Program-made: the position numbers and the translations under genes
Shown: piece after piece, positions 3,001 to 59,550 of the stretch
Layout: each line of letters starts with the position of its first letter
Numbering within the stretch: position 1 is the stretch's first letter
Notes under the pieces: generated by a model
The model's input: the letters and a program-made list of their open reading frames with translations, nothing else
Told to the model about the DNA's origin: nothing
Database searches by the model: none
From: a virus
DNA: 64,000 bases
IMG/VR virus record: IMGVR_UViG_3300025131_000021
Coordinates: 1-64,000 of that record
Reading direction: 5' to 3' (one strand)

Positions 3001-3423
3001 AAGTTGTACGCCATCAGCAAACACTTTATTAAATGCTTGTGTTGAACTACCTAAACAAACAGTACTTTCAAAGGTTAAATCAAAACATGCTCCTGTACCA
3101 GTTCCACCTGCGGTTGCGTTTCCAGTTGTAGTTGTTGGCTTAACATCATAGATGCCAGCACATTTAATAGCGGCAGTTTGGATAATTCCACTACCGTCAA
3201 CAGTTTGTACACAGATTGTTCCTACTTCCGATCCTGATGCAGTGGTTGCGCCAGTATTGTCTACGCAGATAATATCGTTTGCGGTGTATCCTGTTCCTGC
3301 GGTATTAATCGAAATAGCGGTAAGATTGAGTGAAGCAAGTAGATTACCCCTAAGGTACCCGCCTGCCTTTGCTAATTTTTTCTTTTCAAGTTTGTTAATT
3401 AACCCGGTATTAATTATGCTCAT
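1..3423 (-). CDS. PKD-domain tail fibre/appendage protein (partial, runs off window)
   Basis: The minus-strand frame is open from an ATG at 3423 to base 1 (1141 codons, no stop), so the C-terminus lies outside the window. The N-terminal half has phage-fibre repeats: an SHIIPNASDTYNLG-type motif followed by RWED occurs twice, and GGLGVACDVxxGG-type motifs recur. From about residue 560 at least four PKD-like motifs appear at roughly 115-130 residue spacing (IDWGDGTS, FWGDSSD, WTFDDGS, NWGDSS), so this half looks like a string of Ig-like PKD domains. Such modules usually extend or decorate virion appendages and bind glycans or proteins. Cysteine is unusually frequent. A GGAAG lies 5 nt before the ATG. 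It is the promoter-proximal gene of the cassette that continues beyond the left edge. Structural role confident; exact function unknown. Confidence 0.82.
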   Translation of the reverse strand, partial: MSIINTGLINKLEKKKLAKAGGYLRGNLLASLNLTAISINTAGTGYTANDIICVDNTGATTASGSEVGTICVQTVDGSGIIQTAAIKCAGIYDVKPTTTTGNATAGGTGTGACFDLTFESTVCLGSSTQAFNKVFADGVQLSGDVTLGDTAADDITVSGDITSHIIPNASDTYNLGSVTQRWEDGFIDDVDACTGIFCDVTNSTSTTTGALQVKGGLGVACDVCVGGNINATGNIIGANITASGNITLGDADTDELTIGADVHSHIIPNASDTYNLGATTKRWEDAYIDDICADTINTTGTATLACGIASSLQVCDLTTGRIALAGTNGEVEDSSNLTFSASRLSVTGDADVSGATCVTDTTNSTSASSGAVIVTGGLGVGCDVHIGGSLTVAGTQTAVCSNCVLIGDAIMTLNADETGTPSENAGLEIERGTDDNAHITWNETTDKFELKLGTALADLCVANVITDSSGSGSAIGTPAGYAGVFHRTPQLTSGYSGTREGASVCLENTDGLADAIHILNDTILNVRRDTYVRDISWSTDSDYDAGQCISSANTAIAFTFCWMGNPSCIDIDWGDGTSDCKLTSVSCDGSCTVSKTYGSGAVGCNTVCATAKHTSGIGYGSEITLDCTDYMLIATPTPDIEWAMYDGNPANVTTAGWDSASAACICNTSTETGATTSYGNTADYTIFWGDSSDACIATDAAAGGRDGAGLAHTWTNSPDADTRYSVCLRMDNHSTTNPSVLPLSEVKCVCVWSSQTPAFTSDVNSGNNEEATSGLVVNFTGTVDTLGSASNFGAGNCWKWTFDDGSTCEVAAGGGGAGDYNVAVAHTFDLTTGEQASGTTVTRDVCLQAYNGHTSSPFVTSACTITIKPDPRSNVAVIFQNESTGIDNASNVRGYAVTGYDGLNYALGCAANTSQNATCYEYNWGDSSALDCMAHGSSNPGDVGTNITHDYTSVGTGTYNGNLLAYNPTLSLNATDDTENFTMDILATPAAPAGLSAKTIGFTGEDTGTSPKLAHGFTDNTGGATLSAGSAVDRTTDTGGTIDSDIISSYAYNSAAGAVCALVNGSADGAITFTASDNSGLTSSMCITEDIDANTVSATGVGVSGSSKIYPSNFYRVFKAKVSKTASAVSVGLNSYQICHT

Positions 3424-3460: not shown

Positions 3461-3886
3461 TCATATTTTAGTCCATGTTGTACATACTAACTGATCATCT
3501 ACGTTATATGTCAAACATTGAGTAAAAAGTTTTGTTGATCCATTTGTGTCATAGTAATCAACTATGTTTAAATTATCGTTGCTATCATAACATAAACATT
3601 GCATGTTTCCGGTTACATAACAAACTTTCTCCATTAAGTCACTGGCATTATATACCATACAAGATACATTAGTTTCATTTAATGCCGAATCTAATCTATT
3701 TGCTACCCGTACCCAATTATCATCATAATATGTTTCTAAAGAACATATTGTTGAGTTATATCTCAAAAGTCCATCTACTGGTGTTCCATCACGTTGTGCA
3801 GTTGTTCCAACCGAAACTTTAATGGAACCAGTTCCATCGAATCTTGGGTTTTCAGACATTAGTGATGTTGGTACTCTTGTTGTCAT
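3461..3886 (-). CDS. Small fibre-like structural protein
   Basis: 141 residues. The N-terminal half carries the common phage-fibre signature SVGTTAQR...GLLRYNST...LETYYDDNW, which also occurs in the 116-aa and 312-aa proteins of this cassette, so these three are probably related virion proteins or attachment modules. The C-terminal half contains short alternating segments with several cysteines (MQCLCYDSND). AAGGA lies upstream of the ATG. No enzymatic motif seen. It sits between two other short structural genes, probably co-transcribed. Function inferred from context and the shared motif. Confidence 0.6.
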   Translation of the reverse strand: MTTRVPTSLMSENPRFDGTGSIKVSVGTTAQRDGTPVDGLLRYNSTICSLETYYDDNWVRVANRLDSALNETNVSCMVYNASDLMEKVCYVTGNMQCLCYDSNDNLNIVDYYDTNGSTKLFTQCLTYNVDDQLVCTTWTKI

Positions 3887-4545: not shown

Positions 4546-4553
4546 TATTTATC
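4546..4553 (-). promoter_or_regulatory. T4 late-type promoter octamer (GATAAATA)
   Basis: GATAAATA followed by TCT on the minus strand; the same GATAAATATCT string is found before the nucleotidyltransferase gene at 34526. It overlaps the stop codon of the S74 fibre gene and lies 29 nt before the ATG at 4516. Confidence 0.5.
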
Positions 4554-7500
4554 TATTTTAGATCTTCCAGCGCCTTGACTTTTGAGGACAGTTCTTTAAT
4601 TGCATTAGTTAAAATAGGTATCATTTTAACATAATCCAACCAATAATCTGATTCTTTTTCATTATCATTAGGGGTATGTTGCAACATTGATACTGTATTC
4701 TTATCAATTCCTAATTCAGTCAATGCATCTTCCATTTCCTGTGCAATAAAACCAAACTGCTTTGGATCAGTATTATCACTTACAGTTGTTCTATAACTAA
4801 TAGGATCTAAACAAGTGACAAATTCCAGTCCTAATGGTAGTGATTCAATATCACATTTAATTTTTCTATCAGAAGGTGATTGTGTCGCATCAGTGCTAAT
4901 TGCGTACACTTCAGTACCTTGTTTTTGTATAGAAAGTACTTTACCATTAGTAGCATCATTGCGATTTAGTGTCATTGTAGTAACATTCGGACTTATAAAT
5001 GTACTAGCACCATCGCATGTAATGCACATTCTTTTTACTGGTGTACCGTGTGTATAAACAATATAATCTCCAGATGCATCCATGCACATATCATTTGTAC
5101 TATTAAATTGTAATGCTCCGCCAGAATTGAAGCATATATTAGAGCAATAACTTACAGTATCACAAAATGTTGTTGCTCCTTGAAATGTAACTGCGCCAGT
5201 ATTTGAATTAATTGCCGAAACAATGTTAGCATCAGATGCCCATTTATTTGTTAATCCTTCTACTAAGTCATCTGTAGTTTCAGCTCTTAATAATATACCA
5301 CCTTGTTTACCCATGCTAGTATGATTAGCACAACCATAAGAATATCTAGCCTTTGCACTTGTTGGTACAACAAATTGAATATAGGTAGTCGCGGCATTAG
5401 TAAAAGAGGCAACATAATCTGCGGCTGTGGAATATGTATTTCCTCCAACATGATATGATACTCCGGCTGGAGTAGTTGGATTTGATCCTCCATTAAAATC
5501 TACATCTTCTGACAATACTAAAGGATGCCCGGCGTTTGATGCTCCTGATTGTATAATTTTATATGTAAAACCTGGTACAAAATATAGATATGGTTGTGGG
5601 CTCCCACTATCAAATTTAAATTTACTATCAACAACAGTAACATCAAGTTCAATAATAGGAGTGGATGCCGCGGCAGTTGAATCCCACTGTGATCCATCCC
5701 ATCTCATATAATCGCCAGTTCCAGGACTTATTGAAGAATTAACATCACATAATTTTTTAATTGAAGCATCTTGAAGATGTGTATTAAAACATGTCTGATC
5801 ATATGGACTTGTTGAGGTTGCCCAGCAAAATGCTGATCCATTATAATAAAGATATGAGTTAGTTGTTGGACCTGCTGGTACATCACATAAAGTTAAAACT
5901 GAGCTATCACAAACATCAGTTGGTAATGTAATTTGCCCGGTTATGTTATTATAAGCACCTATACCAGAAGTAACACAAACGGAAGCTCTTGCTCTAGTAT
6001 CTGTAAAGTATAATGGACTTGCCCCAAATTCATCAATATCGCATGTATATAAATTAATTGCACCAGTTTTTTCATTAACACAAGTTACATCATTAGTATT
6101 TTGATCTGTTTTAACTTTCCAAGATGTTGTACTATGATTATAATATAAAACTTTACCGTCATCAGCTGATGATACTGCATCAACGTCTGATAAACAAGCA
6201 AAATTTGTAGCACAAATTCGTGTATCTACTCGTGCATCTGTATAATATAAGTTTGACGAACCTTCAGTTACGCAATCTGTACTTGTAGTAACATTATCAA
6301 CATATGCTTTTACTGATTGTTGAGATGGTACTTTAGTTGCACTATTTGAAACCATATTATCTTCGTCAACTAAAGCATTTGTTATTCTTGCATCTGCTCT
6401 TGTATCTGTAAAATATAAGTTTGTTGAACCTTCTGTAATTTCGTCTGTATTATCTTTGCTTGCTACTTGTGCATCAACATATGCTTTTACTGATTGCTGA
6501 GATGGAAGTTTTGTTGCACTATCTGAAACCATGTTATCTTCATCAATTAATGCATTTGTAATTCTTGCATCAGCTCTTACATTTGTATAATATAAATTAC
6601 CACTTTCAGTTATATCACATGTACATAAATTAACATCACCGTGTAAACTATTAATACTCGATACAATAGCAGATAGACCCATTATGCCTGTTGTGCTATT
6701 ATATGTTAAAGCGGAACCACTTACAGAAATTGCACTTCTTGCTTTGGCATCTGTATAATATTGATTAACACATTCATTTATATCACAAGAATGAAGTACA
6801 ACCGCTCCTGTTTTTGTATTAACTTGTGATACTGCATCTGTAAAAGACATAACACCAGTACTATTATTATATGCCAAGGATCCACTAACTGTAATTGCGG
6901 CTCTTGCTCTAGCATCTGTGTAATATAAATCAGTATCTTCTGCTAAATCGCATGTTTTCTTAGTTGCAAAATCTGTATCAAAATCAGCAGTTTTATACGT
7001 TGTTGCTGAAATTACTCCAGTTGCACTATTATACGATATATCACCACTACTACTTAAATGAGCTCTTGTTTCTGATGCAACAGGACCAGTAAATGTAAAC
7101 ACACCAGTCGAACTGTTATATACCATGCTACCATCACCGCCAGCATCTGTTAGTGAAACGGCTCCTCTAGCCCTTGCATTTGTATAATATAAATTACCAC
7201 TTTCAGTTATATCACATGTACATAAATTTATAGAACCAGTGTTTGAGTTAACACAAGTAACACCACCCGTTACAGTAATAACACCAGTACTTGAGTTATA
7301 ACTACCTGAACCAGTTACACTAATTGCTCCTCTAGCCCTTGCATCTGTATAATACAAATCAGTACACTCCGAAATATCACAAGTATAATGATTTGAAACA
7401 TCTGAAATTTTACCATATAAACAATCCGAACGTATAGGCTTATTAAACACCCATTCGTCGTTTGTGCTTGCATAAAGTATTGTAGCATATGGAACAGGAT

Positions 7501-8578
7501 TAGCAGAGCAACATAAAGTTAATTTCAATCCACCACTATTTGCGGCCGAAGGGTTAGTAACAGCGGTTCCTAAAATAGTATTAATCGCACCAATATTTTG
7601 TGTTTCACAACTAACTTGAGTTGTTGTTCCACAAACAGTTAAATCACCAGTGATTAATGAATCACCACAAACTGTAACACAAGCACCTGTATCACATGCT
7701 ATTAATGTATTTGTTATAATATCATCTGCAACTAAATCGTTTGTAACTGTAACACAATTAAAAGTTACATTATTAGTTGTGCCAACTGCTTGTCCTATTG
7801 CTACTGCTCCACTTGTAACTGTAACACCTGTTCCAGCAGTTATAGCGGCACGAGCTCTTGCATCTGTATAATATAGATTTCCACTCTCTGTAATATCACA
7901 TGTACATAAATCAATCGAACCTGTATTTTCATTAACACAAGTGACACCACCTGTAACGTTAATAACACCAGTTGAATTGTCGTAACTACCTGAACCAGTT
8001 ACACTAATTGCTCCACGGACTCGTGCAGTTGTATGATATTGATTAGTCGAGCCTTCAGTTAAATCATCTGTATCATTATTATCTAATGATTCTTTTTGTC
8101 CATCAACATCACAACTAATTGTTTGTAATCGAGTAGCAGAAGGGTGCTTTCTGAGTCTTAATAAATTAGCACCTGTGCCAATTTGTATTTCATCAACAAT
8201 AATCTTTTTTAAGTTATTTGAATCATCTTGTATTTTAAGATCGCCTGAAGCATCTCTAGATAATTTTGTACCAGCAATATCAATAGTGGTACCAGCAGTA
8301 TAGATATCGTTCCATCGCTTTGTTGATGAGCCTAAATCTCTACAACAAGTTTGATCAGGAATTAATGAAGTATCAACAGTATCAAACGATGCGTATATAT
8401 TAGCATCGGATGCATATAAATTCGATCCTTCACTTAAATCAGTTGTAGATTTGGCTGTAAAATCCGTATTAAAACAGGATGAAGCATAATCTGTTTTTGC
8501 ATCTATCTGTGTTTGTACATCAGATGTTACGTTTGCTAGAAAAGGTACCTTATCTGCAATATCTCTGGCTCTACTCAT
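4553..8578 (-). CDS. Tail fibre with cupredoxin-like domain and C-terminal S74 chaperone
   Basis: 1341 residues. Residues ~1-970 hold many copies of a fibre repeat built around NLYYTDARAR and YNSSTGV motifs. Residues ~970-1095 form a cupredoxin-like segment in which H1018, C1083, H1086 and M1089 (GHPLVLSE ... GCANHTSMG) match type-1 copper ligands. The C-terminus (SPSDRKIKCDIESL, then IAQEMEDAL and a terminal helix LTNAIKELSSKVKALEDL) is a peptidase-S74 intramolecular chaperone, which trimerises fibres and cleaves itself off; the Ser/Asp and Lys of the motif are present. About 46 cysteines (3.4 %), far above gp6 in the same genome. Its start overlaps the preceding gene by 8 nt. A receptor-binding or side fibre is the likely role. 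Confidence 0.85.
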   Translation of the reverse strand: MSRARDIADKVPFLANVTSDVQTQIDAKTDYASSCFNTDFTAKSTTDLSEGSNLYASDANIYASFDTVDTSLIPDQTCCRDLGSSTKRWNDIYTAGTTIDIAGTKLSRDASGDLKIQDDSNNLKKIIVDEIQIGTGANLLRLRKHPSATRLQTISCDVDGQKESLDNNDTDDLTEGSTNQYHTTARVRGAISVTGSGSYDNSTGVINVTGGVTCVNENTGSIDLCTCDITESGNLYYTDARARAAITAGTGVTVTSGAVAIGQAVGTTNNVTFNCVTVTNDLVADDIITNTLIACDTGACVTVCGDSLITGDLTVCGTTTQVSCETQNIGAINTILGTAVTNPSAANSGGLKLTLCCSANPVPYATILYASTNDEWVFNKPIRSDCLYGKISDVSNHYTCDISECTDLYYTDARARGAISVTGSGSYNSSTGVITVTGGVTCVNSNTGSINLCTCDITESGNLYYTNARARGAVSLTDAGGDGSMVYNSSTGVFTFTGPVASETRAHLSSSGDISYNSATGVISATTYKTADFDTDFATKKTCDLAEDTDLYYTDARARAAITVSGSLAYNNSTGVMSFTDAVSQVNTKTGAVVLHSCDINECVNQYYTDAKARSAISVSGSALTYNSTTGIMGLSAIVSSINSLHGDVNLCTCDITESGNLYYTNVRADARITNALIDEDNMVSDSATKLPSQQSVKAYVDAQVASKDNTDEITEGSTNLYFTDTRADARITNALVDEDNMVSNSATKVPSQQSVKAYVDNVTTSTDCVTEGSSNLYYTDARVDTRICATNFACLSDVDAVSSADDGKVLYYNHSTTSWKVKTDQNTNDVTCVNEKTGAINLYTCDIDEFGASPLYFTDTRARASVCVTSGIGAYNNITGQITLPTDVCDSSVLTLCDVPAGPTTNSYLYYNGSAFCWATSTSPYDQTCFNTHLQDASIKKLCDVNSSISPGTGDYMRWDGSQWDSTAAASTPIIELDVTVVDSKFKFDSGSPQPYLYFVPGFTYKIIQSGASNAGHPLVLSEDVDFNGGSNPTTPAGVSYHVGGNTYSTAADYVASFTNAATTYIQFVVPTSAKARYSYGCANHTSMGKQGGILLRAETTDDLVEGLTNKWASDANIVSAINSNTGAVTFQGATTFCDTVSYCSNICFNSGGALQFNSTNDMCMDASGDYIVYTHGTPVKRMCITCDGASTFISPNVTTMTLNRNDATNGKVLSIQKQGTEVYAISTDATQSPSDRKIKCDIESLPLGLEFVTCLDPISYRTTVSDNTDPKQFGFIAQEMEDALTELGIDKNTVSMLQHTPNDNEKESDYWLDYVKMIPILTNAIKELSSKVKALEDLK

Positions 8579-9935
8579 TGAGCTCCTCCATTAATAACTT
8601 ATAAAATTTCCCATTTGTATGGTTAAAAACTCTTATATATTCTGATTGCTCATCAAGTGTAAAATGTCCGTTATCGTTGTGCATATGTAAATCACCAATA
8701 GTAGTTGACGAAGCAAATACGTCTTTCCAACGTTTTCCTGCTTCTCCTAAACAATGAGTATCATCAACACTAGGAAGAATATGATTTGGAAATGCTTGCA
8801 TCTGGGCACAAGTATAATGACTTGCTGAATCAAATGTTGCATAGGAAACTGTTTCTAATACATCACTAACATTTGCACCTGAATTTAATACAACCGAAGT
8901 ATTGTTGTTTGCTACAAAATCATTTGATGCACCTTCTATTAATTTAATACCATTTAAAAATACATCTATGTGTCCTGTTGTATAGCATTGTGCAGGCGTA
9001 AACGTTGTTTGACTAGCAGTTGCCGTAAATGCTTCTGTTACAATAGTGCTTCTTTCAGCATTACCATTTGTAATACATAATTGTTTCGGGTTTGATCCTG
9101 TATTTGTTGCTATTGTAATACCTGTTCCTGCTACTACTTCTAATGTATCATTATTAGTAGCAACTAAACTGCTTTGTCCTGATACTTCTAATGTTTTATA
9201 TGATACACCTGAACTTCCAACAGTAACAGTACCACTACCATTATCAGTTAATTCAAATCCACAATTAACATCAAATTTAAAAGTATCTACATTTGCTACT
9301 ATGGTATTTGAAACTGGATCGTTTATTTCACATACATTAATAGCAACTCCTGCATCACACCATGCAAAAGCACTACCTGTCCAAATAAGATTTTGATTAC
9401 TACTAGGACTTGCAGGAATATCACATAATGATTCAATACCAACACCTAGTGTTCCGTTTGTAGCACACCCTGATGTACCTATATTAAGTACACCTGTTGA
9501 ATCAGATGATAAAACAGTATCGCATACTGTAAGAGTACCATCCATACTAACATTTCGCAATGTAGCAATATCTTTATTAGCATCAACAACAAGAGCATTA
9601 TTACCGGCTACTGTACCATCTGTAATTCCATTAATTTTTGCAATATCGGTTTCGGAAACACTTTCTGCACCCATACATAATATATCTGTACAAACTGCTG
9701 TAGAAGCACAAATTGTTCCAACATCAATATTGGCTGTTTTTACACCAACTGTATAAACACATTTCCATTGATTTGTATTACCATCGCTCCCGACTCCGTC
9801 TAAACCAATACAATATGAGTCGTGGTCAATAGGTACAATGTTCTGATTAATTTGAGTAAGATCAACACCCGATTGAGTTAGTTGCCTCTTATTGTTATAA
9901 TTAATATTAGGATTAAAATATGAAAAAGATCCCAC
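8571..9935 (-). CDS. Tail fibre-like structural protein
   Basis: 454 residues. The N-terminus begins MGSFSYFNPNINYNNKRQ. A GTICASTAVCTDILCMGA stretch shows the cysteine enrichment typical of this cassette. Near residue ~300 is the module AFTATASQTTFTPAQCYTTG followed by VFLNGIKLIEGASNDFV, a common beta-sandwich fibre module. The C-terminal part (FPNHILPSVDDTHCLGEAGKRW, cited as FPNHILPSVDD and GKRWKDVF) repeats the SHIIPNASDTYNLG-RW motif of the PKD protein and the 253-aa protein. It overlaps the S74 fibre start by 8 nt, suggesting translational coupling. No enzyme motif. Virion appendage by inference. Confidence 0.75.
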   Translation of the reverse strand: MGSFSYFNPNINYNNKRQLTQSGVDLTQINQNIVPIDHDSYCIGLDGVGSDGNTNQWKCVYTVGVKTANIDVGTICASTAVCTDILCMGAESVSETDIAKINGITDGTVAGNNALVVDANKDIATLRNVSMDGTLTVCDTVLSSDSTGVLNIGTSGCATNGTLGVGIESLCDIPASPSSNQNLIWTGSAFAWCDAGVAINVCEINDPVSNTIVANVDTFKFDVNCGFELTDNGSGTVTVGSSGVSYKTLEVSGQSSLVATNNDTLEVVAGTGITIATNTGSNPKQLCITNGNAERSTIVTEAFTATASQTTFTPAQCYTTGHIDVFLNGIKLIEGASNDFVANNNTSVVLNSGANVSDVLETVSYATFDSASHYTCAQMQAFPNHILPSVDDTHCLGEAGKRWKDVFASSTTIGDLHMHNDNGHFTLDEQSEYIRVFNHTNGKFYKLLMEELNE

Positions 9936-13734: not shown

Positions 13735-14708
13735 TATGTATTCACCACCGTAGCTCTAGTATCAAATCTAAGCCAATTAGTGCCATCATAAAATACTGGA
13801 GTAGGTTGAGCATTACTAGATCCGTCTGTTGCATCACATGCATATGCTATTGCTCCTGCACTTGGTGCGCCTAGAGCATTTAAAGCGGTAACTGTACATA
13901 CTGCTAAACCAATAGGCGAACACGCTCTTGTTTCACCAGCGGCGTTAAGACAAATATAATTTCCTGCATTTATATTAAATGTGCCTGATGCAGTTGTAAT
14001 CAAACAACATGAAATACATAAAGTATTAGCAACTAATGTTCCACCAATATGTGCATTACATGCAATGCCTACACCACCAGATACCATAAATGCACCTGTT
14101 GTTGAACTTGTTGATTGGGTTGTATTTGTTATAGTAAGTGTACCATCAGTACAATAACAAACATCATGTCCTGAATATTTGCAAAGATAGCCTGTTCCTG
14201 AACCACCTGTAATACCTGTTAAGTTACTTCCATCACCAATGAAACAATCAGCAGTAACATTTCCACCAACTTTTATATCGCATACTACACTAATTCCGCC
14301 ATCGGTTTGTATAGACCCATCAGTTGTAGATGTTGCATTTGTAGTATTTTCAGTATATATTTTACTTTCTGATATAATATGTCCTTCAATATACGCATCG
14401 CATTTAACACCTAAGCCTCCTGAGCAGGCTATTAAAGAACCGGTTACTCCTGATGTTGCATTAGTATTTTGAGTTGCGGTATAAACTGTGGCTGATTGAA
14501 TTGTATTACAAGTAAGAGTACCGGAGACTGTCATGTCTCCTGCTACATTAATGTCACCACCAATCCAAGCATCACATGCAATACCGGCTCCACCTAGCAT
14601 TACTAAGGCACCTGTGCTAGTACTTGTTGAATTTGTTGTTGTCTTAAGACATAATTTATCTGCGGTTAAATTATAATCACCGCAAATACAAGAAGTGATG
14701 TCAGTCAT
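13734..14708 (-). CDS. Repeat-containing fibre-like protein (GGxGIACDAxIGG repeats)
   Basis: 324 residues made largely of repeats of the form TTNSTSTSTGALVMLGGAG followed by CDAWIGGDI, about four copies of 30-50 residues, sometimes with spacer segments. The C-terminus (TVTALNALGAPSAGAIAYAC, then DGTNWLRFD) is the AP.AG..AY..D....P.FYDGTNW closing module common in phage fibres and capsid decoration proteins. High cysteine content (for example YLCKYSGHDVCYCTDG). Shares repeats with the PKD protein and the 253-aa protein. Structural by inference. Confidence 0.7.
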   Translation of the reverse strand: MTDITSCICGDYNLTADKLCLKTTTNSTSTSTGALVMLGGAGIACDAWIGGDINVAGDMTVSGTLTCNTIQSATVYTATQNTNATSGVTGSLIACSGGLGVKCDAYIEGHIISESKIYTENTTNATSTTDGSIQTDGGISVVCDIKVGGNVTADCFIGDGSNLTGITGGSGTGYLCKYSGHDVCYCTDGTLTITNTTQSTSSTTGAFMVSGGVGIACNAHIGGTLVANTLCISCCLITTASGTFNINAGNYICLNAAGETRACSPIGLAVCTVTALNALGAPSAGAIAYACDATDGSSNAQPTPVFYDGTNWLRFDTRATVVNT

Positions 14709-14719
14709 TAGTGATTATC

Positions 14720-15481: not shown

Positions 15482-15489
15482 TTATATCT

Positions 15490-16428: not shown

Positions 16429-16454
16429 AATTAAATCATTCTTTATATTGTAAT

Positions 16455-48400: not shown

Positions 48401-48772
48401 ACAGACAACGAAATAAAAAGTAAAGTAATTACCGCAATAGATGCGTATTTTAATGTTGAAAATTGGGATTTTGGTGAAACATTCTATTTTACAGAATTAT
48501 CAGCATACATACACCAATCATTAGCAGGTATTGTAAGTTCTGTTGTTATTGTTCCTGTAAGTCAAGCAAGTGTATTTGGTGATTTATTTCAAATTACACC
48601 AAACTTAGATGAAGTGTTTATTAGCTCAGCACACATAACAGATGTTGAAATTGTTTCAGCATTAACAGATACTAATTTAAGAACAACTGCAACAACTGCA
48701 ACAGAATCAAGTACAGAAGAAATTGTTACCACATCGTTTGTAGGTGGTAGTACATCAACAGGGTCGTATTAA
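45425..48772 (+). CDS. gp6: Baseplate wedge protein gp6
   Basis: 1115 residues (T4: 660). N-terminus FTALYESFASANFKAYDYDS, REALINYVQDNYAEDYNDWI, SSEFVALVDLFSFIGHSIAF, RLDLTTRENILDTATKSSSV, RFVGYNPSR is typical gp6. The J-like core continues with ISIKFADGNYGEIPRNLMRV and NRMVSAQDYTVFPYT. The extra length lies in the middle. Near-zero cysteine. Shares one base with the giant gene (48772), so translationally coupled. Confidence 0.93.
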   Translation: MATTLRQKKLLAAEDFTALYESFASANFKAYDYDSIREALINYVQDNYAEDYNDWIESSEFVALVDLFSFIGHSIAFRLDLTTRENILDTATKSSSVLNLARFVGYNPSRCNPATGLLKLKALRTTETIYDFNGTDIGNTDIIWGDASNTDYYEQFITVLNRAFQTINQFGNPYKKGTVDNISTEVYKLNSNTEKAEVTYPFTAIANGSSHSFEVVNGTFKDTEYFYEDDPDPSAAMSLYYRNDGTGFLSKDTGFFVMFKQGSLQHTDYTLDKAIENRVIDIDTENINNTDVWVQNISADGTVTTANKWTKVDSTEGNNVIYNSLNKNIRKIFSVISRLNDTISIKFADGNYGEIPRNLMRVWYRTSNGDTYVLRSADVQDVSITIPYIGIDGLSYDLTCTFDLEYTVRTATATESVDNIKQNAPLVYASQNRMVSAQDYTVFPYTQSSAVKKVKAVNRTNIGHNRFLTFNDPTGVYTNLNIFGSDGYIYKDSLLKRKIITLPSTYTNQEIADDLMTNMLFDADVMNFYYENYPKITGTPYLASSDSAVKIFRQVSSTSTTSTGYFKVGGSLTTAAAVGTSYTTDTILKVIKKDALLGFVEPATGDTEESTWASSTAHTITWAKVLSVTGSGLGTFDTDGNYTGKDTAGVGTISLSQRIPDNARIRHAVPHFRRKFTPSERDLIVEQLSLKNSFGIGYDEGLDLWWIVDEDNISEPSTTFVRNVVQDNTNTNPSWIIRAEVKNNKIEFLIRHSRYIFSSDKEVRFYNPNIKRSIDVDTNKPVVDQISVLGTNTKPGETTLIGSDIKFNPVGTVTYNDGYSDPTKLIISPADENLDLVPDFPDSFEQIVGADTNKIYFNKVTEGGYEYERYTPNTTTTTKTGRATLKFQWKHYATDERKIDPSASNIIDIFVLTENYDNEFREWLAANGSVSTKPAEPTQTDLNTLLSGIKDYKMSSDEIVFKPVKYKILFGQKADLEMQARFKVIKAPGINLTDNEIKSKVITAIDAYFNVENWDFGETFYFTELSAYIHQSLAGIVSSVVIVPVSQASVFGDLFQITPNLDEVFISSAHITDVEIVSALTDTNLRTTATTATESSTEEIVTTSFVGGSTSTGSY

Positions 48773-51700
48773 TGGCAGATATACCTCATGTTCCTAAGGT
48801 AATAAAAGACACTACTAAACCAGGAACTAATAAAGCAGTCGAACGTAAAGAGTTTTCTAACCTATTACCTTCCTATCTTCGAACAGATACTAATAAAAAA
48901 GTTTTATCAACTATACTAGACTTTTTAATGAGTAATGGTAATACAAGACAATATAGCCAATATTACGGAAGAGCAAAAGGTGGATATCATACAGCCACAC
49001 AAGACGAAATAGCAAATCTACTTAACGAGTGGCAAAAGAATTATAGTTTTAGTCCCGGTTGGTTTAGTCAAGATCCGGGAACAAAAGAAATACAGTTAAG
49101 TCTAACACAAGATGATGCATATACAGAACTTAAACGACACGGAGTAAATGATAAAGATTGGAATGATGTTTTTGAGCATTCGGCATATTCATGGAGTCCT
49201 CCTATTGACCATGATAAGTTTATTAACTATGAACAATATTATTGGATTAATTGGGCGTTAGTTCTTGATGTACCAACACTTGGTAGTGGAGGTTCTGTTA
49301 TTAACGAAATAACTGCAAATGTTACAACCCGAGAGGGCGTGTCTGTTGCATTAGAAACTGGAATGGGACTTAAAAATCTTGGTAACTTCCATTTTAAAGT
49401 ATCCGGTGTTGGCGATAGCATAAGACTTGACGAAAGACAAGCCGCAGATATAATAACACGAATAGGTACTACACGAGAACAACACGAAGCAGATTATATT
49501 ACTATTGGCCTTGGTGCAACTAACGGAAATCCTTGGAGTAGAAGTAATTATTGGATGCACGAAGATACTCTTAAAGCAATGGAAATAGGGTGTGCTTGGA
49601 GTGCTTCAGTAACATATGCCGCCGACGATATTGTTAGTCGCGATGGAGAATTTCGCATAGCAAAACAGATAGGAGGTAATATAAATCAAGATCCGTTATC
49701 TGATAATACATTAACATATTGGGGTCCTGGTATTAAAGTATTAGATCCGGGTGCTCGAGCTACACGACCTATTATAGAATTTAATAAAGACATAGAAATA
49801 TATAATCATGGTTTCGATCATGCGGCAGAAGTTGGCCACATTACATCTGCTAGTATCGCTGATATTGTAGGTAAATCAAGTTATTCATATAAATCTGGTG
49901 CAGACGATGTATCTTTTGGTAATGGACAATCAGTACTGTTTATAAATTCGACTACAGATATTAATAATAAAATGTATACAATTGGTGGAGTTGGTTCTGC
50001 AATTACATTAACAGGCGAAAAAACATTTACAACTGGACAATCAGTACTCACACACAAGCGGGACACTGGCACCTCGGCAACAAAAATCTATATGGGTTCT
50101 CGTTATCACTTTAATGGAACGACCTTTGTTACTTCCCAACAAAAGACTGCAAGAGGACAAGCACCTTTATTTAATTTGTATGATAAAGATAATGTATTGT
50201 TAGATAATACAACAAAATACCCAGATAGCAACTTTGCTGGTAGTAACGTTTTTACATATGCAACAGATACAACCGGTACTACTGATACAGAATTAAATTT
50301 TAATCCTGTTATTGAAACAATCGGATTACAGGTAGCAGATTTATACGCAAGTAATAATGATTATGTATTTGATTGGGATCAGTCTAAAAAAGAATATCAG
50401 TATAAATCAAATAATGTAGTAACTGAAATAGCAGGAATATATTATACTAAAATTGGTTCTCAATATCAAAGTGGCTGGCATGAAAGTAATTACGAAGCAT
50501 ACACTCCTGTCATACAAGACATTGAAGTAGGTTCGACAACAAGCGATACTCGATATTCTGGATGTGTAACAGGAACAGTAGGATTAAATGGAAAATATGA
50601 AATTGATACAGGAACTAATACTCCGTATTATTCACGAGAATTTTATGTACATTTTGAAGGGAATAAATTTTCATGGTTTGTTAAAAAAAATGGACGGTAT
50701 CATCAAATTCCAGCAGAGCCAAATGAAACTAATCCTAAATTATATTTTCCATCTGGTAAAGATATAACAATTAATTATTATAGTGAAATCGAAGGATTTA
50801 AAATTACTGATCCAACCGGTACCGTTCCCGCCTCTGGAATTACTAATAATAATGCAACATCAGGTACAATAACAATTAATATTGATAAAGCAACATACCC
50901 GGTATTACGTTATAACGCATATCCAACAAGTACTGTTTACGGAGAGATATACCTATTTGATGAAAAACAAGAACATGGAAGACCTTTAGTATATAGAAAC
51001 GGAATTATACAAAAAGAAGGAACACAGGTACAAGCAGAAGCTCAAACTGCTGATTGGTATTTAAGTGGATCAAAAATTACATTTCCATTTTTTACAACAG
51101 AAGGCAGCCAGGGTAGAACTGTAACATTTGATTCAGTAACAGGTGATTATATTATACCAAGTGAAACTAGTAATGAACTATTAGAAGTAACTACAATACA
51201 AGAAAAAGATGTTATTAATATTGAATATTATATTGATGAACCGCGAGCTACTGATGTATGGGATGATTGTGCACCATTAACTAAAAATCCTAATTGGGAA
51301 AATCCTGCCAGTTTAAGTTATGGTAAGTTATATAAACATTTTACTACATGCTTACGAAAGCAACCATTACTTGAAGGAGCATCTTCGGGTAAGAATAATT
51401 CTAGAAATATTAGATCATTTAACACAATACCGGGTACAATATTACAATATAAAAATCCGGCATTAATAAGTGGGTTGATTTTAGATAATCCTTTTGCACC
51501 AATTATGCAAAGTATTTTTTGGTATGCACAACAATATGAAGTGTTTAAATTTAAGTTACTTAATGCATTTGATAACGCAATGCTAGGTAAGGATTATACA
51601 TTATTATCTCATAGAGAATTACTTGATGATGCACTAATTGCATTAACTAAAGGAAAGACTAAAGGATTCTCCTTTAGTTTAACAAATCATGTTGCATATA

Positions 51701-54700
51701 AAGGGTATACTGAAAAATCATACGTAGGGGATGGCACTACAACGGCTTTTGCGTTACCAACCGGATGCACATATGGCACAACGCCAACAAGTCAAAATAT
51801 TGAAATATATGTTAACGACACAATACAATTACTTGGTACTCAAGCAGGTTACAACTATACTATTAGTTCTAACACAATTAACTTTAGACCCGATTCAATA
51901 CCAGCAAATGAAAAAATAATTTTAATTAGATATGCTGATGCAATTGAAGATAATTTTATACCACATACACCAGCAAGTTTAGGTATTAATAGATTATTTA
52001 AACCTTGTGTACGTAATTTTACAAGTACAAATAAATCTGTTGTTACTCATGCACTTAAAATGCAAGCACTTAATAATGGGCCTCGTACAATTAAAATTCA
52101 TGATGGATTTAATTATTTTATACAAGGACATGATGGTAGTATGTATCCTGTAAGTGATCAAAATAATTTAACAAAATCGGAAAATGCACTATTAGAATTT
52201 GAACGAAGAATTTATAATCAAGTACAAAAATATAATACATTTGATACAAACGGAATATATCATCTTTCTATTACTAAAGACTTACGACAAACTGCTCCTA
52301 AGTTAATTAGAAAAGAATCAGGTGCTATTTGGCAAAAATTATTTAATATAGATCCATTTGAATTTACGTTTGATGTAACTGATAAATTTAGAGTAAATTA
52401 TAATGATCTCAATAATTCCGGTCATGCATTAGGACTTATTAAAGAAAAATTTGGAACTTCTCGACCAGACATTGAACCATGGAGAATACTTGGATATCAA
52501 AAATATCCTGAATGGTGGGAAACTTATTATACGTGGAAAGATACTGCTAATGGTGGTGACGATACAAAACGTGCAAATCTTATAACGGCTATTCAAGCAG
52601 GACATTATAATAGTCCGGGCGATTCAACTAAAAACTTTGATTCACGTTATGCAATTGATTCCACAATAGTAGGTAATATTGTTTCTGTTACAGGTGAATT
52701 ACAAGATCCTGTTACTGCAGGTATTATTTCCCCAGCAAGTTTTAATACATTATCAAAAGGACAATTAGTAAAAAATTATGTATGGAATGATTACGGTCCA
52801 GTACAAAATGCATATGATCATAGTAGTTTTGCTCGCTTTGTAGAAGTATTAGAGTTTTATGTTGGGTTTGCTAATGAATATGCATTTAGATATTTTGATT
52901 CACAGAAATTTAATACGTCTGGTACTAATATAACAGACATAGATGGCGGAAGAACTACGTTTACAAATTATATAACAAATGGCGAGGTAACGTCAACCGG
53001 AACAGTAACGAAACAAATTGGAATACAAAATTTATTGTTTGAGTTTATGTTATCACAAGGCAAAGATAATACATTATTTGGAAAAACACTACGGAACTTA
53101 CAACCACATATCTTATGTAAAACAAATAACTTTATTATTGATAATAGAACTGCTATAAAATTACCTATAAGTTTTAATTTACAATCAGGTAATACATTAC
53201 CAGAAGAAAACCAGCACATATTTTTATATGAAAGTCCGGCAACTGAAAGGTTTGTATACAGTCAAATAAAAGTAACAAAAGTTGCAACAGGCTTTAAATT
53301 AAGCACATATGATACTATTGGTAGAGAAATAAAGTATTATGCTCCAAAGCCAGCAGTAATATCAACAGATGTTGTTAGTGCTAGTAAAATTCAAAAGAAA
53401 CGATATACTACAACTGAAACTATATTAGATACACAAGTAGTTTTAAAAAATAATCAAGAAGTAGTCGATGTGCTAAGAGGAATATACAATTGGTATGAAG
53501 CCAGCGGCATAGCGATGGACAAGTCATCAGATGCGGTTGTAAAACAATATATTGTTTGGGGCGAAGTAACACAAGCAATAGATAATAATGTTACAGTAAG
53601 TTTTTCGACAAGTAAAATAACAGTTACTAAAACATCAGGTACAGTATTGTTAGATAGAGAGTTAGGTTATCAACATATTAATGGTTTTAAAACCACAGGT
53701 GGTATTATAAAAGATAATGATGTAGAAGTATTTCGTACAGGACATGATTTTGAAATAACACATACAGCAGATGTTGGTTGTTTATATTTTAAAATATGTA
53801 CATATGAACACGTAATAGCAGTTGATAATACTACCCAATTTAATGATATTGTGTACAGTCCGTTATTAGGTATTAAACAGCCACGAGTTAGAATATCAAC
53901 AATAGGTTTATTAGACTGGACAGGACGACTTACCGAGCCAGGATACATGATTAAAAGTAATACTATTGAGCCTAATATTGAAACAAGTGTTAAGCAAATT
54001 AGTACTGATTACTTTGCAGTTGAACAAGGCATTGCTAATGAAGAATTATCTAAAGCATTGCGTTACAACATTGGTTATTCAGAAAAAGAATTTTTACGTA
54101 ATATAAACACAGATAATGATGTAAGTTTTGAATTTTATAGAGGGTATATCCAAAATAAAGGTACTAACGAAAACTTTAATCGTTTACAAAGAAACAAAAA
54201 TACACTATACAATGATAGCAATAGTGTAACATCTATTAACGAAGAATGGATGATTAAAGAAGATGATTTTGGTTCTACACGTGAAAATGAAACATTAGAA
54301 TTTGTTGTTCAACCTAGAGATTTTAATCAAGAACGACAATTAATAGAATTTTCTAAGTATCGAGATCCTTCAAACAAAGATCTTAAAGCAGATACTAAAA
54401 TTGAAATACTTGCTAATGATGCAAGATGGGTATGGAAACCAACTGATTTAAGTACGGGTGCTGAAAATTGGTGGGATGATTATACATCTGAAATTTTTAG
54501 AGTTACAGTTTCAAAAATTGGACTTAAAAATGTATTTCAACTTGATGGAGTAGTTCGTCCAATACTTGTTTTAAATAAAGGCAAAAAATATAGATTTGAT
54601 AGTACCGATTCTTCTGTTGACAACGATGCATTGCTATTTTCAACTACACCAAATGGTACACATAATAGCGGAACCACTTATAGTACAACAGTAAAATACT

Positions 54701-57700
54701 TTTTAGAAGGCGTTGAAAAAAATAAAGCAGATTATCTTGCAGGACATTCAACTGCTACTTCACGATACATAGAAGTAGTGCCTACATCAGATACTGGTGA
54801 TAGATTATATTATTATAGTAATAGTAATTCTGATATGGGTATGACACTAATCATAACGAATAATGAATATGGTTTTAATACAGATATATTTTATGATCGG
54901 GCCATGTATACGTGGAATATGGCTGAAGCAGAAAGACGACAATATACCCGATGGCAAAAAACAGAAGATCCAGAGGGTGATCTTCCGTATTCAGGCTATG
55001 CATTATTAAGTGAAGCAGATCATTATGTACAAAAATTAACTGATATACCAGATTTATATAGTAAGTTAAGTCTTACATCATATACAGAATGGTCGGCGGC
55101 AAGTAATTATAATAAAGGCGACAAAGTACGTTATAAAGGTAAACTGTGGGAAGCACAACTCGGAATGACAAGTTATGATGGTAAAAGTTGTGCAGTAAAA
55201 GGAGCAGATCAAAGCGGTGATACAATTACTGTTGATGGATTAACACAAAAGCCATTAATAGGTACGTTATTAACATGGGTAGGTGCTGATGTTGATGAAA
55301 CTGTTCCAACGCAAACACATCATGTAGAAGAAGTAGAAAACTGGGATGCAACTGCTGGATCAGCAGACTTAGTTATATACCCACAGAAAGTAACAAAATC
55401 ATCAGATAATGCTTCAATTACATTAAATGTACCAACACCAGCATTATGGATAATAGACGGAACAGGATACGAAGGATTTTATTTAGATGAACCTAACTGG
55501 TTAGCAGTCGAAGATACACTTGGTAATTCAAGAATTTGGGTTAATCAATATGATGATAAGGGCTGGAATATTTTACAGTTAATGGATTATGATAATACTA
55601 CATTTACAAGCCAAACAACAACAGCAACATTAGAACCTACAAATGCTATTATAGAAATTTGTAAAGGAGTTGTTACTGGAGATGAAGCACAAATACAAAC
55701 TAAAGGCAATCATAATCTTAAAAAAGGTGATTATGTAGTAATTACCGGAGTTGCAACTGCTAATACAAATGTAAACGGCATACACAAAGTTATTGGATTT
55801 CCAACTGGAAGTAACAACGATGGCTCGTTAAGAGCAACAGACCACTTTTTAATTGACGAATATGCTTCGGAAACATCAACAATAACAGAAGGTAAGATGT
55901 TTGCATTTAAACCAACACGTTTTCAAACAACTGCACAATTAACAGCCACCACATCAAATGCAGAATACTTTTGGAGAGATGGTGCTATTGCATATGTTGA
56001 TTATGATGCTACGTATAGAGGATGGGCAGTATATCAACATAATAGGCTACATGCATTAACTGTATTCTTAAAATATAATGCAGATAATTATCAAGAGGCA
56101 GTTAATAAATGTTACGGGTGGGGACCATTATCTGATTCCACACTAGGACAACCTGTTATTAGATATCAACAGTCAAAAATTGATGAAAGAAATATTGATA
56201 GAGTTATTTTATATAATGGTGACACAAATAAAAAACTTGCTGAATGCGAATTGTATGACCCATTTAAAGGTATTATACCAGGCGAAGCAGATAAAAATAT
56301 AGATTATAAGAGCCTATGGGATCCTGCAAATTATAGTAATTCAACAGATACAACGTATACAGGTGATGATACAACTCACTGGGCAACTGAAAAAGAAGGT
56401 TTAATTTGGTGGGACCTTAATAATGTAGGTTATATTGAATATGAACAATCTACTTTAACTTATAGAAATAATTATTGGGGCAAAGAATTTCCGGCTTCAA
56501 GCATTGATGTGTACGAATGGACAAAAAGTTCTATAGATCCAGAAGCATGGTCGACTACCGCCGAAGGTACAGTTAAAGATGATATAGAAGTAAGCGGAAC
56601 ACCATATTCTATAACAGTTGAAAATAACACACATTATTATTATACAGTAGAAGACGAAATAGATGCAAATGGTGATTTAAAAACTTATTATTACTTCTGG
56701 GTAAAAAATAAAACATATGCAATAAATGCTAATAAATCATTAAGCACATTTGATATTGCTCGATACATAAAAGATCCAACTAATATGGGAGTTAAGTGGT
56801 GTGCCCCTATTGCTCCTAATGCATTAACAATAGCAAACGTTGAAGATTTAATTGAGACTAATACAGTCGTACAAGTTAGATTTAATATTAGTGAAAAATC
56901 TACACATGATGAATGGCAGACTATATACGAAAATGATAGCAGTGAAAAATTACCAGAAAAATATAAAGCAAGATTACTAGATAACTTAATAGGATTTTCT
57001 TCAGATTATTCAACACATTTAATTTGGACTTTACGAACAGATTATAGTGCATTATACAAGTATAATAGTGGTGATGTTGTAATGGCTAATAATCAATACT
57101 GGGAAGTATTGATTGATCATATGGGCGGTAACATTAGTACTGCATTATCTGCAAATAAAGTAAAATTATTACAAGAAGCAGATTCTAACGGCACATTCAA
57201 TAAAGGTGATACAGTTTTATATAGTGCTAATTATTATGAGTGTTTTAAAACTCATAATTTAGGTGAAGATCCGGGCTTACCAGGATCAGGAATAACAGGA
57301 TCAGAACTACCGGAAGGTGTTTGGTATCCATGGACAACCATAAATGCTAGTACAAATTTTGCAAGTTATGTTGCTCCGGCAACTACTTCGTTTGCGTTTC
57401 AACCTTGGAAAATTGTATATGATTTAGAAGATACCGACGTTGAAGTAATTACTGCATCCGCTAATACAAATTACAAAAAACGTAATAAACGATTAGAATT
57501 ACCTGACACCGCTTTACATCCGTATGCTAGATATGGAAATGAAATACGGCCTAGACAAAGTTGGTTTAAAAATAGAGCCGCCGCTAAAAGAGAATTTATT
57601 GACGGTGCTAATGTAATATTAAAAGAAATTAACATAGTTGATAATGTTGGTTATTGGAGAACAACTGGTACTATTGTTTTGGATATGCAAAAGACAACAT

Positions 57701-59550
57701 ATACAAAAGGACTACATACATATAACCCAACAACATATTGGCAGTATATTGATTGGCAGGATTCTTCTGTAACAGTCGAATCAAGCTCGGAAATTGTTGC
57801 TGACGAAGCAACATTTGCAGAATTAGATGCTACAACATATACAATAAACAGTATAATTGAAATTAGTGATGACGGGTCCGGCAGGAGAGAATGGTTCCAG
57901 GTACAAAAAATTGGTGATACACAGAAGTTTGTATTAGTTAAAAAAGAAAATGCAACAATAGAAATATTAGATACATTATGGCAAACATCTAGTACAGGAT
58001 ACGACAGCGATATATTTGATTTTTATGGATTTGATAATGATGCTGAAGTAGAATTTGAAATTATTGCAAATGACTTATTACTAAAAATATTTTCAAAGGC
58101 ATACGAATCTCGATTCAATACTATGTTTTTTAATATGTTGCGTTATGTATTACAAGAACAAAATTTTGTTCCTTGGATGCAAAAAACTAGTGAAAATAAA
58201 TTTAGGCTTGTAAGTAAAGGCGACATACAACCTGGTAGTTATAATGTTGAAAATACACAAAATACAATAGATTATTATAATGAAACAAAGCCTTATCACT
58301 CTAAGTTAGATAAAGAGTTATTTTCTAAACATATGTTTGATATGCAAAATATAACACTATCTGAGATAGATGGTAGAGCTGGAACATATGGAAATGCATT
58401 AACACATGTTGCAAATATACAAATTATGCATGGTGAAGTTGATTCATACGTATATGAATATACTATGGTAGAAGATTTACATCCAAGTCGTCCGGGTAGA
58501 GATTTAGATTATGTTAAAATTCCTTGGAATGATTTTACATCAACTATGGGCGGTACAACAATATCGTGGAATCCAGGAAGTGCAATTATTGCAGTATATG
58601 TAAATGGCACACTACGTGATGCATCAACATACGAAGATATGTATATGGTTGATGGTCGTGTTGTAAACTTTAATTCTAAATTAACTGCTGGTGATAAAGT
58701 TAATATTTTATTTAATATAACCAAAAAATATTCAGAAGGTAATTTACACCCCGAAGGTGTAGATATATCTACTAATAGTATTGGCGGTGATTACATAGGA
58801 TATGCAAATGCCTCATTTACAGAAGCAGAACCAGCCACAATATTCGATGGAGATGCATTTACTACACTAACCGATCCTACTGATATTATAGATGCTAGTG
58901 GATTTTATACTGCAACAGCATGGAATAATTGGAATAACGAAATGATACCAAGTTTCTTACGTGAAACAGTAGAAATAAGAGTACAAAGTAATCATTCAGG
59001 TAGTACTGTTATAACAGGATCAACATGGAGTGCTACACGATCTTGGAAAAATATAATACAGGATAGAGAAAATCATCAAAGATTTATGATTATAGAAGAT
59101 AAAGGTATTACATTAAGTGGTAATATAACTGCTGATGCAACAGAATTAATAGTAAGTTCGACAACAGGCATTGTAGGCCCAACAATTGACGAGCAGGGTG
59201 GTGTTGATAATGTATTTTATTTAGATTACTTTCCTGGAAGAATATGGATTGACAATGAATGTATAGAATTTGATAAAATGATTGGATCAACGTTTTATAA
59301 TTTAAGGCGCGGAATGCTAGGCACAAGTGCAGTAGCTCATACATCCGGTGCCAAAGTAAAAGATGCAAATAAATTAAAAGAAATAAATGTAAATAGATGG
59401 GAAAGTACAAATCCATTAATATCTGCTCCTAACCAACGTAACTTAGGATTTCCACGTATACCACAATGGAATGATTTAGGAGCAAGAATAAACAATAGTA
59501 CGAATGATTTAGCAATAAAGCTCAAGGGCTATCATGGTACGATAACTTGA
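48772..59550 (+). CDS. Giant baseplate/fibre protein, gp7 position
   Basis: 3592 residues in one frame. Starts MADIPHVPKVIKDTTKPGTN; the first ~200 residues contain aromatic-rich QYYWINWALVLDVP. Modules: fibre beta-sandwich at ~980-1065 (YVGDGTTTAFALPTGCTYGT); degenerate cupredoxin-like at ~1910-2030 (YYYSNSNSDMG, M2022 retained, Cys and His ligands lost); four CBM5/12-like segments at ~273 (YAADDIVSRDGEFR), ~2106 (YNKGDKVRYKGKLWEA), ~2757 (YNSGDVVMANNQYWEV) and ~2808 (FNKGDTVLYSANYYEC); C-terminal YFPGRIWIDNECIEFDKMIG near 3480. Position after gp6 equals T4 gp7 (1032 aa). Probably a wedge protein fused to carbohydrate-binding appendages. Confidence 0.75.
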   Translation: MADIPHVPKVIKDTTKPGTNKAVERKEFSNLLPSYLRTDTNKKVLSTILDFLMSNGNTRQYSQYYGRAKGGYHTATQDEIANLLNEWQKNYSFSPGWFSQDPGTKEIQLSLTQDDAYTELKRHGVNDKDWNDVFEHSAYSWSPPIDHDKFINYEQYYWINWALVLDVPTLGSGGSVINEITANVTTREGVSVALETGMGLKNLGNFHFKVSGVGDSIRLDERQAADIITRIGTTREQHEADYITIGLGATNGNPWSRSNYWMHEDTLKAMEIGCAWSASVTYAADDIVSRDGEFRIAKQIGGNINQDPLSDNTLTYWGPGIKVLDPGARATRPIIEFNKDIEIYNHGFDHAAEVGHITSASIADIVGKSSYSYKSGADDVSFGNGQSVLFINSTTDINNKMYTIGGVGSAITLTGEKTFTTGQSVLTHKRDTGTSATKIYMGSRYHFNGTTFVTSQQKTARGQAPLFNLYDKDNVLLDNTTKYPDSNFAGSNVFTYATDTTGTTDTELNFNPVIETIGLQVADLYASNNDYVFDWDQSKKEYQYKSNNVVTEIAGIYYTKIGSQYQSGWHESNYEAYTPVIQDIEVGSTTSDTRYSGCVTGTVGLNGKYEIDTGTNTPYYSREFYVHFEGNKFSWFVKKNGRYHQIPAEPNETNPKLYFPSGKDITINYYSEIEGFKITDPTGTVPASGITNNNATSGTITINIDKATYPVLRYNAYPTSTVYGEIYLFDEKQEHGRPLVYRNGIIQKEGTQVQAEAQTADWYLSGSKITFPFFTTEGSQGRTVTFDSVTGDYIIPSETSNELLEVTTIQEKDVINIEYYIDEPRATDVWDDCAPLTKNPNWENPASLSYGKLYKHFTTCLRKQPLLEGASSGKNNSRNIRSFNTIPGTILQYKNPALISGLILDNPFAPIMQSIFWYAQQYEVFKFKLLNAFDNAMLGKDYTLLSHRELLDDALIALTKGKTKGFSFSLTNHVAYKGYTEKSYVGDGTTTAFALPTGCTYGTTPTSQNIEIYVNDTIQLLGTQAGYNYTISSNTINFRPDSIPANEKIILIRYADAIEDNFIPHTPASLGINRLFKPCVRNFTSTNKSVVTHALKMQALNNGPRTIKIHDGFNYFIQGHDGSMYPVSDQNNLTKSENALLEFERRIYNQVQKYNTFDTNGIYHLSITKDLRQTAPKLIRKESGAIWQKLFNIDPFEFTFDVTDKFRVNYNDLNNSGHALGLIKEKFGTSRPDIEPWRILGYQKYPEWWETYYTWKDTANGGDDTKRANLITAIQAGHYNSPGDSTKNFDSRYAIDSTIVGNIVSVTGELQDPVTAGIISPASFNTLSKGQLVKNYVWNDYGPVQNAYDHSSFARFVEVLEFYVGFANEYAFRYFDSQKFNTSGTNITDIDGGRTTFTNYITNGEVTSTGTVTKQIGIQNLLFEFMLSQGKDNTLFGKTLRNLQPHILCKTNNFIIDNRTAIKLPISFNLQSGNTLPEENQHIFLYESPATERFVYSQIKVTKVATGFKLSTYDTIGREIKYYAPKPAVISTDVVSASKIQKKRYTTTETILDTQVVLKNNQEVVDVLRGIYNWYEASGIAMDKSSDAVVKQYIVWGEVTQAIDNNVTVSFSTSKITVTKTSGTVLLDRELGYQHINGFKTTGGIIKDNDVEVFRTGHDFEITHTADVGCLYFKICTYEHVIAVDNTTQFNDIVYSPLLGIKQPRVRISTIGLLDWTGRLTEPGYMIKSNTIEPNIETSVKQISTDYFAVEQGIANEELSKALRYNIGYSEKEFLRNINTDNDVSFEFYRGYIQNKGTNENFNRLQRNKNTLYNDSNSVTSINEEWMIKEDDFGSTRENETLEFVVQPRDFNQERQLIEFSKYRDPSNKDLKADTKIEILANDARWVWKPTDLSTGAENWWDDYTSEIFRVTVSKIGLKNVFQLDGVVRPILVLNKGKKYRFDSTDSSVDNDALLFSTTPNGTHNSGTTYSTTVKYFLEGVEKNKADYLAGHSTATSRYIEVVPTSDTGDRLYYYSNSNSDMGMTLIITNNEYGFNTDIFYDRAMYTWNMAEAERRQYTRWQKTEDPEGDLPYSGYALLSEADHYVQKLTDIPDLYSKLSLTSYTEWSAASNYNKGDKVRYKGKLWEAQLGMTSYDGKSCAVKGADQSGDTITVDGLTQKPLIGTLLTWVGADVDETVPTQTHHVEEVENWDATAGSADLVIYPQKVTKSSDNASITLNVPTPALWIIDGTGYEGFYLDEPNWLAVEDTLGNSRIWVNQYDDKGWNILQLMDYDNTTFTSQTTTATLEPTNAIIEICKGVVTGDEAQIQTKGNHNLKKGDYVVITGVATANTNVNGIHKVIGFPTGSNNDGSLRATDHFLIDEYASETSTITEGKMFAFKPTRFQTTAQLTATTSNAEYFWRDGAIAYVDYDATYRGWAVYQHNRLHALTVFLKYNADNYQEAVNKCYGWGPLSDSTLGQPVIRYQQSKIDERNIDRVILYNGDTNKKLAECELYDPFKGIIPGEADKNIDYKSLWDPANYSNSTDTTYTGDDTTHWATEKEGLIWWDLNNVGYIEYEQSTLTYRNNYWGKEFPASSIDVYEWTKSSIDPEAWSTTAEGTVKDDIEVSGTPYSITVENNTHYYYTVEDEIDANGDLKTYYYFWVKNKTYAINANKSLSTFDIARYIKDPTNMGVKWCAPIAPNALTIANVEDLIETNTVVQVRFNISEKSTHDEWQTIYENDSSEKLPEKYKARLLDNLIGFSSDYSTHLIWTLRTDYSALYKYNSGDVVMANNQYWEVLIDHMGGNISTALSANKVKLLQEADSNGTFNKGDTVLYSANYYECFKTHNLGEDPGLPGSGITGSELPEGVWYPWTTINASTNFASYVAPATTSFAFQPWKIVYDLEDTDVEVITASANTNYKKRNKRLELPDTALHPYARYGNEIRPRQSWFKNRAAAKREFIDGANVILKEINIVDNVGYWRTTGTIVLDMQKTTYTKGLHTYNPTTYWQYIDWQDSSVTVESSSEIVADEATFAELDATTYTINSIIEISDDGSGRREWFQVQKIGDTQKFVLVKKENATIEILDTLWQTSSTGYDSDIFDFYGFDNDAEVEFEIIANDLLLKIFSKAYESRFNTMFFNMLRYVLQEQNFVPWMQKTSENKFRLVSKGDIQPGSYNVENTQNTIDYYNETKPYHSKLDKELFSKHMFDMQNITLSEIDGRAGTYGNALTHVANIQIMHGEVDSYVYEYTMVEDLHPSRPGRDLDYVKIPWNDFTSTMGGTTISWNPGSAIIAVYVNGTLRDASTYEDMYMVDGRVVNFNSKLTAGDKVNILFNITKKYSEGNLHPEGVDISTNSIGGDYIGYANASFTEAEPATIFDGDAFTTLTDPTDIIDASGFYTATAWNNWNNEMIPSFLRETVEIRVQSNHSGSTVITGSTWSATRSWKNIIQDRENHQRFMIIEDKGITLSGNITADATELIVSSTTGIVGPTIDEQGGVDNVFYLDYFPGRIWIDNECIEFDKMIGSTFYNLRRGMLGTSAVAHTSGAKVKDANKLKEINVNRWESTNPLISAPNQRNLGFPRIPQWNDLGARINNSTNDLAIKLKGYHGTIT

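Follow-up and report, generated by a model that had tools for sequence, protein, structure and literature searches.

A cupredoxin-like domain with a putative type-1 copper site in tail and baseplate proteins of marine phages

The question and the locus

Can the tail fibre of a marine phage contain a copper protein of the cupredoxin type? The question is raised by a 1341-residue tail fibre encoded in a 64,000-nucleotide stretch of DNA (the window) from a 73,539-base IMG/VR virus record. The same genome encodes a portal protein, a T4-type major head protein, an SbcC-like endonuclease subunit and baseplate wedge genes, which suggests that the virus is a T4-like myovirus. A sequence-only reading of the window had pointed to four residues of the fibre (H1018, C1083, H1086 and M1089, with C-x2-H-x2-M spacing) within a beta-rich segment, had recognised in them the type-1 copper ligand set with the spacing of amicyanin, and had described a related copy elsewhere in the genome that lacks the ligands; redox sensing, receptor binding or fold stability were the possible roles that it suggested for copper in the fibre. 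In the 1341-residue translation the four residues are found at exactly these positions, and the S74 chaperone that the fibre was said to end in is recognised by Pfam near the C-terminus, as expected of an S74-chaperone tail fibre. The features are collected in Table 1.

Table 1. Coordinates in the window of the fibre gene, its cupredoxin-like domain with putative copper ligands, and the ligand-less copy.
Feature	Position	Strand	Basis or remark
Tail fibre ORF carrying the domain	4553..8578	-	PHROG 697 structural protein, E 4e-29
S74 intramolecular chaperone, fibre residues 1236-1290	4709..4873	-	Pfam PF13884, E 1.2e-9
Cupredoxin-like domain, fibre residues 972-1108	5255..5665	-	AlphaFold mean pLDDT 87.2, pTM 0.82; Foldseek PDB matches
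His1018, putative first copper ligand, directly before strand	5525..5527	-	Sequence, AlphaFold model, family alignment
Cys1083, putative thiolate ligand, final residue of strand	5330..5332	-	Sequence, AlphaFold model, family alignment
His1086, putative copper ligand, loop after the Cys1083 strand	5321..5323	-	Sequence, AlphaFold model, family alignment
Met1089, putative axial ligand, same loop as His1086	5312..5314	-	Sequence, AlphaFold model, family alignment
Second domain copy, His/Cys/His replaced by Asp/Ser/Asn, Met kept	about 54529..54843	+	Sequence comparison
3592-residue baseplate-region ORF with the ligand-less copy and a CBM_5_12 module	48772..59550	+	Follows baseplate wedge gene 45425-48772

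The motif C-x2-H-x2-M occurs once in the fibre against 0.005 occurrences expected from composition. As an argument against chance from a single sequence this is weak, since the fibre is unusually rich in cysteine (3.4%), and it is the family evidence that settles the matter: the conservation of the ligands among related domains, described below, rules out a chance motif in a Cys-rich protein.

A domain family in virion proteins of marine phages

The sequence-only reading covered one fibre, and the domain turns out to be common in virion proteins of marine phages. By sequence comparison it is one member of a large family that spans cyanophages, pelagiphages and Methylophilales phages. Using tblastn we found 108 phage records with the domain, mostly those of Synechococcus and Prochlorococcus phages and also of Methylophilales and Pelagibacter phages; further pelagiphages and two Roseobacter phages were among the records matching a short-form domain query. 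A profile of the short form matched at least 600 stretches in viral contigs as well as 35 contigs that are filed as genomes of marine bacteria and archaea. Across the family the domain measures about 105–135 residues, and the window copy differs from the short form by an insertion before the last strands.

The carriers are long fibres, the cyanophage homologue of gp9 (the wedge-fibre connector), the cyanophage baseplate wedge protein T4-GC 399, and small phage proteins of about 215–290 residues with the domain at their very C-terminus. Among 153 complete proteins, 63 have the domain no more than 40 residues from the C-terminus. S-SSM5, P-SSM7, S-TIM5 and HTVC028P are carriers that exist in culture. 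PHROG models matching the family are annotated as tail fibre, baseplate wedge or virion structural protein, or are unannotated.

The small proteins at L099:4641-5288 and at similar loci (L034-L096) have a conserved N-terminus, SDRSGFRYRLRDMRKEWNGLLVGKDEYEPKHPQL (phrog_28581, function unknown), and the copper-like domain forms their exact end. At two loci (L006:3300-7460 and L010:4002-7466) a YHYH domain (PF14240) directly follows a copy of the domain within the same baseplate protein. In a survey of pelagimyophages, the domains mentioned for these structural proteins are YHYH, concanavalin and collagen, and neither copper nor cupredoxins are named (PMC7029224).

Profiles relate the family to cupredoxins

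Searched as a single sequence against Pfam, NCBIfam and the PDB, the window domain found no cupredoxin, and a PDB search with the S-TIM66 domain found none either; only profiles did. With family profiles, pseudoazurin, plastocyanin, nitrite reductase, rusticyanin, azurin and amicyanin were among the best PDB matches, and the C-x2-H loop was superposed in the printed alignments; individually these matches are marginal (E 0.02–1) and antibodies occur among them too. Profile comparison also placed C-x2-H-x2-M on the copper ligands of plastocyanin and amicyanin. We then compared the family by hhalign with seven cupredoxins (an amicyanin identical to 1aac, a plastocyanin and five marine bacterial proteins) and obtained 88% at E 3e-6. 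A separate run with other settings scored 27–28; 100 column shuffles gave no more than 18, and the reversed profile gave 9. Similarity to the cupredoxin superfamily is therefore present at the level of sequence profiles.

Curated models give a weaker signal. Individual family members match the plastocyanin model TIGR02656 (7.6e-5) and SoxE (2.7e-4), and there are weak matches to PF00127 (Copper-bind) in 12 of 76 members (best 0.0045, the cut-off not being passed) and to the amicyanin model TIGR02657 in three of the 76 (best 0.0055). The window domain itself matches neither TIGR02657 nor any Pfam model. Since no curated copper model was passed, we file the domain as cupredoxin-like and not as an amicyanin or a member of PF00127. 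The likeness to amicyanin drawn by the sequence-only reading thus holds for the ligand spacing, which is that of 1aac, and for profiles that align with amicyanin, plastocyanin and pseudoazurin; it gives no support for membership of the amicyanin family, since the domain stays below the cut-off of every NCBIfam and Pfam copper model and has Pro after its first His, where plastocyanin and amicyanin have Asn. Multicopper oxidases have His-Pro at the position of the first ligand.

In the predicted models the four residues are placed along the strands as in cupredoxins

Structure prediction, the check proposed along with the sequence-only reading, points to a cupredoxin fold for the window domain. 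AlphaFold2, supplied with 76 aligned family members, returned a beta-rich model with a Greek-key beta-sandwich, the scores of which are given in Table 1. Foldseek against the PDB ranked the cupredoxin AcoP first (E 1.2e-3, probability 1.00, TM 0.52), and below it largely copper nitrite reductase, laccases and other multicopper oxidases, with E-values that reach only about 1e-3. Predicted beta-sandwich and ligand placement are what the domain has in common with these members of the superfamily. Against viral models the matches were mostly phage fibre, baseplate and uncharacterised proteins.

For the short form the picture is ambiguous. The canonical short member L099 was modelled at pLDDT 92.4, but its matches in the PDB are for the most part Ig-like domains, which fit as well as or better than cupredoxins do, and amicyanin comes only at ranks 43 and 49. 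This result is the main weakness of a fold assignment that is itself drawn from predicted models. Phage Ig-like domains are mobile beta-sandwich modules found on many virion proteins; their likeness to the family is a weak Foldseek match to the short member, and the conserved His2Cys-Met set of the phage domain sets the two apart. In both models a strand begins directly after the first His and another finishes with the Cys, and the loop leading to the last strand contains the second His and the Met. This is the arrangement of cupredoxins, so that the predicted models and family conservation together put His, Cys, His and an axial Met, relative to the strands, where a type-1 site would have them.

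Three models in BFVD, A0A481YWX9, A0A481YVH3 and A0A481Z6J5 ('Beta-sandwich proteins' of Marseillevirus and Pithovirus relatives), also match the domain model (E 3e-4 to 1.3e-3), which may indicate cupredoxin-like proteins in giant viruses.

His, Cys and His are kept or lost together

Once sequences more than 90% alike had been removed, 135 domains had readable His, Cys and His columns: 124 have all three residues, 11 have none and not one is in a partial state. Some sequences were collected by patterns that include the Cys, which biases the absolute retention and, to a lesser extent, the absence of partial states. Partial states are likewise absent among the phage isolates from tblastn, and the columns of the four ligands have some of the lowest entropies in the alignment. 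The ligand Cys is the sole cysteine of the protein in 89 of 176 carrier ORFs. A role of Cys1083 in a disulphide is therefore unlikely, the ligand Cys standing alone in half of the carrier proteins.

The second copy in the window, which the sequence-only reading had noticed, is one of the ligand-less kind (Table 1), and a related contig (L159) is in the same state. In the cyanophage T4-GC 399 proteins an intact copy precedes a second one that has lost the ligands, so that the baseplates of cultured cyanophages repeat the pattern of the window. By parsimony on a FastTree tree, ligand loss needs only two changes; the 11 ligand-less copies are thus not 11 independent events and form largely one group, the second copies of T4-GC 399, together with relatives. 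A permutation test of co-loss (0 of 100,000) overstates the evidence for the same reason, since the ligand-less copies are related. The Met is separable from the triad: several triad-less copies keep it, and the intact first copy of S-RIM4 is without it. Such separability might be expected of an axial ligand, and since several ligand-less copies retain the residue, the Met may have a structural role as well.

An intact first and a ligand-less second copy form a regular pair within one protein in L006, L183, L184, L185, L186, L188 and L190, all T4-GC 399 proteins or homologues.

Probable copper occupancy and proposed role

Family conservation, the all-or-none pattern, the AlphaFold and Foldseek results and the profile alignment to plastocyanin and amicyanin have all strengthened the type-1 ligand set of the sequence-only reading, at the level of a type-1-like site. 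Sequence and predicted model give good support to the fold and the ligand set; that copper fills the site, and what it would do there, we infer. Our preferred explanation, to which we give a probability of roughly 0.6, is that the domain has the cupredoxin fold and an intact type-1-like site, serves as a mobile module of marine phage tail fibres, baseplates and small virion proteins, and is filled with copper and stabilising. After release from the host, a copper ion from the lysate or from seawater would enter the site. The bound metal would lock the loop between the last two strands and thereby stiffen the domain, giving a rigid and durable building block of the tail, with stabilisation of the particle as the main effect. 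In copies that no longer need the metal, His, Cys and His would then disappear jointly and only the sandwich would remain. Unlike a secreted or periplasmic electron carrier of the cupredoxin kind, the phage domain lies inside fibre and baseplate proteins, and several of its copies have lost the site.

We favour a structural role over host-specific receptor binding because the domain is found in constitutive baseplate proteins (the gp9 homologue and T4-GC 399) of phages with very different hosts. By analogy, a copper-loaded domain could instead be recognised by a copper uptake receptor in the host outer membrane and so aid adsorption. Azurin, which is secreted in Pseudomonas, is bound by the TonB-dependent copper transporter OprC (PMC6907878), and phages with HxH tail fibres have been proposed to use the iron in them to exploit siderophore receptors (PMC11705849); the frequent position of the phage domain close to the C-terminus would suit such a role. 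Conservation across phages of unrelated hosts, in baseplate proteins as well as in fibres, argues against it, as does the neighbourhood of the site, which is the conserved and not a variable part of the domain, and we regard receptor recognition as unlikely.

The ligand-less copies bear on a different alternative, in which the domain is a scaffold only, a sandwich derived from cupredoxins with no metal in its site in the virion. As such copies sit in baseplates while another copy in the same genome or protein stays intact, the sandwich evidently works there without the site, and in the host cytoplasm little metal would be loaded. What is hard to explain without a metal is that His, Cys and His are kept as a set, with not one partial state found, and that other cysteines are avoided; an empty scaffold seems improbable to us on these grounds. 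If a metal is bound, it could be another one, such as zinc, likewise serving stability, for cupredoxin sites can bind Zn and His2Cys ligand sets are not exclusive to copper; the retained Met and a C-x2-H-x2-M loop that matches the copper loop make this quite improbable. Least probable of all is a redox trigger, in which copper would change oxidation state at the cell surface, alter the tail and time infection: cupredoxins are electron-transfer proteins and the domain occurs in homologues of the baseplate wedge and the wedge-fibre connector, but no partner electron-transfer domain was seen.

Possible copper-bearing phage tails

In the non-subscription literature searched, there was no description of a cupredoxin or of type-1 copper in phage tails or baseplates. 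The iron of T4 gp37-type HxH fibres (the 'Ferrojan horse') is comparable in being a metal site of a tail fibre for which a part in marine metal cycling or in the choice of receptor has been proposed (PMC11705849). There the metal is held by paired His residues of a trimeric fibre, whereas the cupredoxin-like domain has one site per domain and a different fold, ligand set and putative metal.

Since hundreds of other ocean phages have the same domain with the same residues in their tail and baseplate proteins, many marine phage particles may carry copper. A stronger version, that many marine tailed phages have real type-1 copper centres in tail and baseplate, numerous in each particle, and are an unrecognised pool of seawater copper, with some lineages engaging host copper-uptake receptors, is one that we put forward tentatively and regard as doubtful. 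Were the sites filled, a very common part of ocean phages, baseplates of cultured cyanophages included, would be a copper protein; the idea of phage tails that bear metal would extend from iron to copper, and marine phages would enter the copper chemistry of seawater. Proteins annotated only as fibre, baseplate or hypothetical would also gain testable properties, namely colour, copper content and stability.

Composition and neighbours of the fibre genes

Five proteins of the fibre region of the window (1-3423, 3461-3886, 4553-8578, 8571-9935 and 13734-16623, all on the minus strand) contain 3.2–6.2% Cys, compared with 0–0.5% in the portal, head and baseplate proteins of the same phage and 0–0.8% in homologous fibre repeats of other phages. 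The copper-domain protein of S-TIM66 (L005) is similar at 3.3%. Disulphides or additional metal sites are possible reasons for this richness. Beside the fibre genes lie two tandem subtilisin-like proteases (PF00082; 10300-13734, minus strand), and a 'peptidase S8' protein of cyanophage S-BM3 contains two intact copies of the copper-like domain.
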